Positions 10,370 through 11,815 of a DNA stretch of 23,051 nucleotides are shown in pieces. This stretch comes from a virus. The position numbers were made by a program, and so were the translations under genes. Position 1 is the first letter of the stretch. Every line of letters begins with the position of its first letter. The stretch spans positions 1-23,051 of the IMG/VR virus record IMGVR_UViG_3300036945_000184. One strand, written 5' to 3'. Under the pieces are notes generated by a model. It had not been told where the DNA came from, did no database searches, and was given only the letters and a program-made list of their open reading frames with translations.

Positions 10370-10582
10370 ATGGCATACAGCAGAAAAACTATATCCAATG
10401 AAGGCGACAGATACATGATTGAGCTTGGTGAAGCGCGAGTCTTGTTCAGGACTTACGAATCAACAGGCCAAAAGGTGTTAACGCCTGTCCGCATGGAATG
10501 GCTTGAGAAGCGATACGGCTCGGGCGCTGTCCAAAGAATCAAAGGTTACATGGTGAAATTACAGAGTGGGGAATTGGAGTAA
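10370..10582 (+). CDS. Hypothetical early protein (70 aa)
   Basis: A 70-residue basic protein beginning MAYSRKTISNEGDRYMIELG and containing RMEWLEKRYGSGAVQRIKGY. The stop shares a base with the next start (TAATG). No Cys cluster or membrane segment is seen. Family not recognised; the C-terminal helix with Lys and Arg may contact nucleic acid. Confidence 0.55.
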   Translation: MAYSRKTISNEGDRYMIELGEARVLFRTYESTGQKVLTPVRMEWLEKRYGSGAVQRIKGYMVKLQSGELE

Positions 10583-10989
10583 TGAATGAGTTGGCTTTAT
10601 TCGCAGGCGTTGAAATGACTAAGCAATACAAATCATCTGAATATATGAGGGAAAAAGCAAAAGCATGGCGCTTGGCTAACCCCGACCGCGTGGCTGCTTA
10701 CAGGGTTAAAAACAGAAGCAAAAACCATAGACAAGAGGTTGTTCGTAAATATGGCGTTGCTTTTGAGTGGTTTGATGAGCAACTTGAGAAACAAAACAAA
10801 TCATGTGCAACTTGTTTTAAGCCACTTGAATGGACAGACAAGCAAAACACACCTCATGTGGATCATTGTCATTCAACAGGAAAAGTAAGAGGAATTCTTT
10901 GTAATCGGTGCAACACGGTCTTAGGTCTTTGCGAAGACAGCAAAGAATTGTTTGAAAATTTAACAAGGTATTTGGAATGTCATGGTTAA
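10582..10989 (+). CDS. Endonuclease VII-type HNH nuclease
   Basis: The 135-residue protein has the endonuclease VII (T4 gp49-type) core: Cys75 and Cys78 (CATCFKP), HVDHCH at 92-97, VRGILCNRCNTVLG at 102-115. These enzymes resolve branched DNA and also act as homing nucleases. GGAG precedes ATG 10582, but typical homologues start at the internal MTKQYKSSEYMREKAKAW (ATG 10615). The extra N-terminus MNELALFAG is a copy of the methyltransferase motif I region encoded by the next gene, as if the nuclease gene had landed in the methyltransferase 5-prime end. Confidence 0.9.
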   Translation: MNELALFAGVEMTKQYKSSEYMREKAKAWRLANPDRVAAYRVKNRSKNHRQEVVRKYGVAFEWFDEQLEKQNKSCATCFKPLEWTDKQNTPHVDHCHSTGKVRGILCNRCNTVLGLCEDSKELFENLTRYLECHG

Positions 10990-11807
10990 TCAGCAAAGCC
11001 TTAATGAACTCGCTCTCTTTGCCGGAGCAGGTGGAGGAATACTTGGGGGAAAACTTCTCGGATGGCGAACAGTCTGCGCCGTTGAGTGGGAGCCATACCC
11101 AGCAAGCGTACTGTGCGCCAGGCAAAATGACGGACTTCTCCCGCCTTTCCCGATTTGGGATGACGTACAAACCTTTGACGGAAAGCCGTGGCGAGGAATT
11201 GTTGACGTTATTTCGGGCGGATTTCCGTGCCAGGACATTAGTGCAGCCGGAAAAGGCGCAGGGATTGACGGAGAACGATCAGGAATGTGGAGTCACATGG
11301 CGCGGGTGGTTGGCGAAGTACGACCCAGATTCGTCTTTGTGGAGAACAGCCCAATGCTCGTTTCTAGAGGACTTGAACGAGTCCTTGGTGACCTTACCGC
11401 GCTCGGGTATGACACGAAATGGACTGTTATGGGAGCTGCCGATGTTGGAGCAAACCACCAAAGGGACAGAATATGGATTGTCGGAAAATTGGCCTACACC
11501 TCGCAGTTGTTCAGCAATGGCGGCAACGATAACGCCAGAATCAGCATGGAACGAGAAACGCAATCCGAATCTGGAAACGATAGTGGGGAAAAGAATGTAT
11601 CCAACACCGACTTGTCACAACAGCAAGGAAGGAGCATATCCAGCGGAATACACCAGGAACACTCCTACGCTTGCGACTCACGCTGGTGGCAAATTGAACC
11701 CGATGTGGGTCGAATGGCTAATGGGGTGGACGCTGGGGTGGACAGACTTAAAGCCATTGGTAACGGACAAGTCCCATTGTGTGCCGCAACAGCATGGAAA
11801 GTGTTAA
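10977..11807 (+). CDS. Overlapping +1-frame protein inside the methyltransferase gene
   Basis: A second open frame of 276 codons covers almost the whole methyltransferase gene, one base out of phase. AAGG at 10965-10968 lies 8 bases before ATG 10977. The product has protein-like features: MTDFSRLSRFGMTYKPLTES (51-70), SLWRTAQCSFLEDL (120-133), two xPTP elements (WPTP near 172, YPTP near 208) and LNPMWVEWLMGWTLGWTDL near the end (240-258). From memory, proteins with LNPxWVEWLMG and PTP elements occur beside or within phage cytosine methyltransferase genes. Function is unknown. Whether it is expressed cannot be told here; the long open frame could partly reflect constraint from the other frame. 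Confidence 0.55.
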   Translation: MSWLISKALMNSLSLPEQVEEYLGENFSDGEQSAPLSGSHTQQAYCAPGKMTDFSRLSRFGMTYKPLTESRGEELLTLFRADFRARTLVQPEKAQGLTENDQECGVTWRGWLAKYDPDSSLWRTAQCSFLEDLNESLVTLPRSGMTRNGLLWELPMLEQTTKGTEYGLSENWPTPRSCSAMAATITPESAWNEKRNPNLETIVGKRMYPTPTCHNSKEGAYPAEYTRNTPTLATHAGGKLNPMWVEWLMGWTLGWTDLKPLVTDKSHCVPQQHGKC

Positions 11808-11815
11808 CAGCATGA
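10982..11815 (+). CDS. DNA C5-cytosine methyltransferase
   Basis: The 277-residue enzyme has the C5-methyltransferase motifs in order: motif I FAGAGGG at 13-19 (AdoMet binding), motif IV PCQ at 82-84 with catalytic Cys83, motif VI ENSP at 121-124, motif VIII QRDRIW at 160-165, and motif X GNGQVP at 260-265. The variable region between VIII and IX is only about 70 residues. It methylates cytosine in a sequence that cannot be read from here, probably protecting phage DNA from host restriction. The start overlaps endonuclease VII by 8 bases, and the stop overlaps the next gene as ATGA. Confidence 0.95.
   Translation: MVNQQSLNELALFAGAGGGILGGKLLGWRTVCAVEWEPYPASVLCARQNDGLLPPFPIWDDVQTFDGKPWRGIVDVISGGFPCQDISAAGKGAGIDGERSGMWSHMARVVGEVRPRFVFVENSPMLVSRGLERVLGDLTALGYDTKWTVMGAADVGANHQRDRIWIVGKLAYTSQLFSNGGNDNARISMERETQSESGNDSGEKNVSNTDLSQQQGRSISSGIHQEHSYACDSRWWQIEPDVGRMANGVDAGVDRLKAIGNGQVPLCAATAWKVLTA

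Follow-up and report, generated by a model that had tools for sequence, protein, structure and literature searches.

A phage locus whose two nested reading frames very probably encode a two-subunit DNA cytosine-C5 methyltransferase

A virus record of 23,051 bases (the whole stretch of DNA that was analyzed, hereafter the window) contains two overlapping reading frames on its plus strand that, judged from their sequences, very probably form a nested, dual-coding, two-subunit DNA cytosine-C5 methyltransferase of the M.EcoHK31I kind. The protein of frame 0, which we call alpha, would supply AdoMet binding, the catalytic cysteine Cys83 and motif X, and the protein of the +1 frame, which we call beta, would supply the target-recognition region (TRD) and motif IX. 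In ordinary C5-methyltransferases, the TRD and motif IX lie between motifs VIII and X of a single chain. Translation of alpha and beta most likely begins at start codons that almost coincide, and the two proteins most likely assemble into one active, putative orphan methyltransferase, which would mark the phage DNA and in this way protect it from host restriction. We infer that both proteins are produced and bind each other, that neither is dispensable, and that the enzyme has an anti-restriction role.

Alpha is a cytosine-C5 methyltransferase frame of 277 amino acids (10982-11815 with its stop codon, 10982-11812 without) and beta is an open reading frame of 276 amino acids nested in it (10977-11807 with its stop codon, 10977-11804 without), so the first-pass annotation, which described two frames open together at this locus, had their coordinates and lengths right. 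The two starts overlap in ATGTCATGG (10977-10985), with the beta ATG at 10977, the alpha ATG at 10982 and 5 nt between them. On the same strand, alpha has motif I for AdoMet binding (LFAGAGGGILGG, 11015-11050), motif IV with Cys83 (GGFPCQDIS, 11216-11242), motif VI (FVFVENS, 11330-11350), motif VIII (HQRDRIWIVG, 11456-11485) and motif X (RLKAIGNGQVPLCAATAW, 11744-11797). The annotation had credited this frame with all catalytic motifs, which is not the case: motif IX is absent, and the match to Pfam PF00145 (E 4e-33) covers residues 11-195. Neither a TRD nor motif IX was found in the alpha chain, where residues 183-260 mostly have a pLDDT below 50; residues ~171-255 are weakly conserved and mostly predicted to be disordered. 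The residues C83, E121, N122, R161 and R163 are invariant across homologues, and the alpha structure model has a confident catalytic domain that matches M.HaeIII and M.HhaI over ~170 residues. The motif X sequence RLKAIGNGQVP is conserved as well, with a predicted C-terminal helix and a pLDDT of 84-96 over the block. In beta, also on the plus strand, the putative TRD (11490-11690) includes the elements WPTP (11490-11501) and YPTPT (11598-11612) and is followed by a motif IX-like block, KLNPMWVEWLMGWTLGWTDL (11691-11750).

The +1 frame is open well beyond what the alpha protein and its codon usage predict. When the synonymous codons of alpha were shuffled 20,000 times with the protein fixed, the +1 frame had a mean of 7.2 stops and never zero, and when codons were drawn from the usage of the other window genes it had a mean of 6.2 stops, with P(0)=0.00035. 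The remaining long genes of the window have 6-24 stops each in their +1 frames, with longest runs of 45-119 codons. The chance estimate of the first-pass annotation was too loose, and its suspicion that the frame is open beyond chance holds up under synonymous resampling. We gathered homologous loci with a beta query and, against bias, also with three different alpha queries. Of the 166 close homologues that we drew from viral contigs, all except 2 have an open +1 frame; in the beta-anchored set, the close homologues L008 and L021 have one +1 stop each, and a few close homologues have breaks in alpha. In two alpha-anchored sets, which were not selected for +1 openness, the median longest +1 run is 279 and 243 codons, compared with 48 and 40 for the +2 frame, and in sets B and C this run spans ~98% of the alpha length at the median locus. 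Shuffling predicts 4.8 and 3.6 +1 stops for sets B and C, and from the WDDV motif to motif X all 98 loci analyzed are free of them, although such homologue counts are not probabilities, because related sequences are not independent.

In a more diverged group, set D (35-60% identity to a Paenibacillus phage enzyme), +1 stops are numerous up to alpha codon ~58, all but vanish over the next 200-300 codons and after that are often numerous again. Read from its stops, this pattern is the footprint of a putative second gene that starts later, the one to which the depositors of phages Shelly and Diva gave the name 'internal gene'. The same set provides an internal control for dual coding: changes at alpha third positions run at ~18 per site upstream of the beta start and at ~9.5 just after it. 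The first-pass annotation had proposed looking among homologues for +1 stops or an absence of constraint, and this check did not refute its reading: what we found was a frame open in nearly all of them, conserved starts and alpha synonymous sites that slow at the onset of beta.

The start of beta is itself conserved. In relatives, the usual layout is ATGAATGAG, with the alpha start first (ATG, or GTG/TTG) and the beta ATG four bases later, and the beta ATG is found in 157 of 164 loci. For the asparagine codon that forms this ATG, 154 loci use AAT and no locus uses AAC, whereas AAT makes up 41% of asparagine codons elsewhere in these genes. The commonest spacing of Shine-Dalgarno-like motifs in relatives is 4 nt to the alpha ATG, hence 8 nt to the beta ATG, and in the window an AAGG ends 8 nt 5' of the beta ATG. 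Set D had suggested a beta start at residue 62, which we dropped for the close clade because there the ATGAATG start is conserved and MSWLIS was rebuilt at the N-terminus, as described next.

In the window, an endonuclease VII-like HNH gene (10582-10989, plus strand) opens with MNELALFAG, and its first 28 bases, ATGAATGAGTTGGCTTTATTCGCAGGCG, are the usual 5' end of alpha and beta, so this gene appears to have been inserted into the methyltransferase gene. An inserted gene with a methyltransferase-type 5' end occurs at ~10 loci and involves more than one type of gene: besides 10582-10989 of the window, we list L007, L009, L016, L036, L069 and L165 as invaded, with other inserted genes in L142, L184 and L224. 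The inserted genes, mostly endonuclease VII-like, lie just 5' of a recoded methyltransferase start. A single site appears to have been invaded repeatedly, in the fashion of homing endonucleases. In the rebuilt 5' end, the MSWLISKAL of beta and the NELALFAG of alpha, which are normally superimposed, now lie one after the other and are encoded by different codons. Both N-termini were kept after invasion, which argues that both are needed.

We also counted changes per site by codon position on a tree of 105 sequences, and the frame in which selection acts switches along the gene. Across motifs I-VIII the changes fall on alpha third positions; for example, at beta residues 27-41 the values for alpha first and third positions are 3.1 and 22.0. 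Just 3' of motif VIII, selection passes to the beta frame, and from there through the motif IX-like block, including the putative TRD, the changes fall on beta third positions (36.1 vs 18.3 and 16.0), with 36.1 and 18.3 at alpha first and third positions for beta residues 207-221. On the 3' side of the motif IX-like block, selection is back in the alpha frame at motif X and changes fall on alpha third positions again, with 11.7 and 24.5 at alpha first and third positions for beta residues 267-281. Mean pairwise identities follow the same course: over motifs I-VIII alpha is at 0.85 and beta at 0.63, between motifs VIII and X they are at 0.25 and 0.37, the motif IX block has 0.74 for alpha and 0.87 for beta, and motif X has 0.90 and 0.63. 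The changes by position and the identities agree, and therefore point to the TRD and motif IX segment being carried by the +1 frame. The dual-coding pair proposed from the window alone is borne out to this extent: stop avoidance, codon-position changes and identity all indicate protein-level selection on both frames.

The C-terminal block of beta, [KR]LNPxWVEWLMGWPxGWTDL, resembles canonical motif IX (RRLTPRECARLMGF in enzymes from the same genomes), and in the window beta has Thr252 where this block has a nearly invariant proline. A profile of the beta C-terminus matched motif IX of canonical enzymes weakly (E 0.059), with the match placed exactly on motif IX. Beta matches the phage cluster PHROG 1008, named 'DNA methyltransferase' (E 5e-25), and other phage clusters as well; neither beta nor its profile had a sequence match in PDB, Pfam or NCBIfam, so that the database search proposed earlier for the +1 product succeeded among phage clusters and came back empty from Pfam and PDB. 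An AlphaFold2 model of beta alone is poor (pTM 0.30) and had no Foldseek match.

Intermediate forms are stronger evidence on the identity of beta than the direct motif IX profile match. In Gordonia phage MelBins, gp5 is one chain with motifs I-VIII, then PTP elements, RLNAAFAEWMMMLP, and then motif X. In mycobacteriophage Zaka, alpha (gp91) stops after motif VIII, and PTP elements, an EWMMGW block and motif X are found in gp90, a gene that overlaps it in the +1 frame. The beta HMM matches gp90 at E 1.1e-17, with motif X next to the match in the same frame, and the TRD-IX region of MelBins gp5 at E 9.9e-5 (both E-values for 1000 sequences). By sequence, MelBins and Zaka would place the +1 segment as the target-recognition region plus motif IX. 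The first-pass annotation had placed LNPxWVEWLMG proteins near methyltransferase genes of other phages, which is correct: at every locus we checked they lie inside or overlap one. It had also offered two roles for the second protein, of which acting with methylation is now favored and countering it disfavored, since beta appears to hold the missing TRD and motif IX.

Existing annotations of such loci vary. Zaka gp91 and gp90 (901-1900 of its extracted locus) are both annotated 'DNA methylase', and many mycobacteriophages have two adjacent methylase genes. In mycobacteriophage Bipolar (901-1594), beta (gp69) alone is annotated, as 'DNA methyltransferase', and the catalytic alpha frame from 901 is unannotated. 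In Streptococcus phage P0093_47 (1052-1471), a +1 open reading frame annotated as a methyltransferase lies within a conventional single-chain enzyme with a motif IX of its own, and this frame is probably a passive open frame and a useful negative control. It also matches the N-terminal half of beta, and similarity in that half can be passive because the underlying alpha DNA is conserved.

With the beta query, at least 599 viral stretches match. In one scan of species genomes, beta lies at the same offset to a methyltransferase in 80 of 80 loci, which according to record titles span Pseudomonadota, Bacillota, Actinomycetota, Verrucomicrobiota, Synergistota, Chloroflexota, others and one archaeon. 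None of these 80 genomic loci has a motif IX-like block in the alpha frame, and none has beta without alpha; the loci were located via beta and so give no estimate of how frequent one-chain enzymes are. When 20 of these genomes were searched with PF00145, the enzymes examined either had long Pfam matches and +1 runs of 46-152 codons or short Pfam matches and +1 runs of 205-361 codons. A search among E. coli relatives, as a route to M.EcoHK31I, returned only four prophage-like matches, one of them marked as a pseudogene. In E. coli PCP07014 (1501-2262 of locus L406), a homologous alpha annotated as a pseudogene has an internal stop and adjoins an integrase.

Other readings of the locus have to be weighed against this evidence. 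The +1 frame could be open accidentally, or just because codon usage is biased and the methyltransferase protein conserved, with no second protein at all; coding bias does reduce +1 stops in conserved methyltransferase motifs, and the canonical enzymes of the same genomes reach +1 runs of 152 codons. On the sequence comparisons, this reading is already contradicted by synonymous resampling, the sharp stop boundaries of set D, the conserved beta start and the switch of selection to the +1 frame, and we find it scarcely credible. It is unlikely, to a lesser degree, that only the C-terminal part of beta is functional, from about residue 62 or later, with nothing but an incidental overlap across the first ~60 codons of the close-clade genes. 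The beta of diverged relatives does begin at alpha codon ~58, and that of Zaka even later. The +1 frame is nevertheless open over this stretch in nearly all close-clade loci (0.5 stops expected in each), the ATG and MSWLxSxAL have been retained, and where a locus was invaded, the rebuilt MSWLIS uses different codons.

Programmed ribosomal frameshifting would explain why the +1 frame carries the TRD and motif IX after motif VIII, and why motif X is in that frame too in Zaka, by fusing motifs I-VIII of alpha to the +1 segment in a single chain without two subunits. Regaining motif X in the window would take two opposite shifts, however, and beta possesses a separate conserved start, 4-5 nt away from that of alpha, and an N-terminal sequence kept far 5' of any shift site, all of which makes frameshifting very unlikely. 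Finally, beta could be a separate regulator, inhibitor or anti-restriction protein that simply overlaps alpha, as might be suggested by its long N-terminal part without a known domain and by the lack of a structure match. But alpha is without exactly the region that beta carries, one-chain and partly overlapping relatives have that region within the methyltransferase, and beta was found without alpha in none of the 80 genomic loci, so we consider a separate protein quite improbable. The two-subunit methyltransferase, with its TRD and motif IX in beta, is the reading that we prefer.

As for how such a pair arose, on balance we lean towards a history in which the ancestral segment with the TRD and motif IX moved to the +1 frame, after which overprinting extended the second gene upstream until its start almost coincided with that of alpha, making this a major, overlooked form of phage orphan C5-methyltransferase in which invaders must rebuild both N-termini in tandem, the overlap leaving little room for silent recoding. 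If the nested reading is true, few same-strand overlapping gene pairs of phages and bacteria would be as long or as widespread as these, which occur across many phyla. Annotation pipelines mostly retain one frame, so the records of some phage methyltransferases would show an incomplete enzyme, an 'internal gene' or a hypothetical protein. Anyone who recodes such a gene would lose its partner unawares, a point that bears on phage methyltransferase assays and on phage genome recoding. The series from one chain to a partly overlapping split to a fully nested pair would also illustrate how a domain can shift frame within a gene.

In M.EcoHK31I, the beta gene also lies inside the alpha gene in a different frame. 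In contrast to that enzyme, the window beta spans the whole of alpha. As summarized in PMC3404938 (citing Lee 1995), M.EcoHK31I (YGGCCR) has motifs I-VIII and X on its large subunit and motif IX on a smaller polypeptide, with both required in vitro, and going by this published description the window locus likewise has I-VIII and X in alpha and motif IX on a second polypeptide. The TRD of M.EcoHK31I is, in the same account, predicted to be in the large subunit, whereas here alpha is poorly conserved from VIII to X and the conservation lies in the beta frame. More generally, split C5-methyltransferases, both natural and artificial, function as two chains (PMC3404938, PMC5944983). M.AquI (CYCGRG) is made of two chains split in the variable region, and its small subunit carries motif IX as well as motif X (PMC3404938); the window pair would share the two chains and the site of the split, but its motif X stays in alpha. 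Zaka gp91/gp90, where gp90 holds IX and X, has the M.AquI-like layout.

In the Paenibacillus larvae phages Shelly and Diva, the depositors annotated an 'internal gene' within the methyltransferase, which belongs to the same beta family and frame; it begins at alpha codon ~58-62, and its annotated function is a transferred name only. Among PHROG 1008 and related clusters there are cases in which the beta frame was annotated in place of alpha, and the PHROG 1008 cluster carries no statement that its members are nested partners of another frame. M.BatI, from a Bacillus prophage, is an active orphan C5-methyltransferase 20-30% smaller than usual (PMC8936443), and going by that description it may be an assayed member with a hidden beta. 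Among the papers searched, we found no published nested phage pair. Because of the M.EcoHK31I precedent the kind is already known, and what appear to be new, as far as the literature was searched, are the complete overlap, the TRD in beta, the wide distribution and the invaded and rebuilt start.
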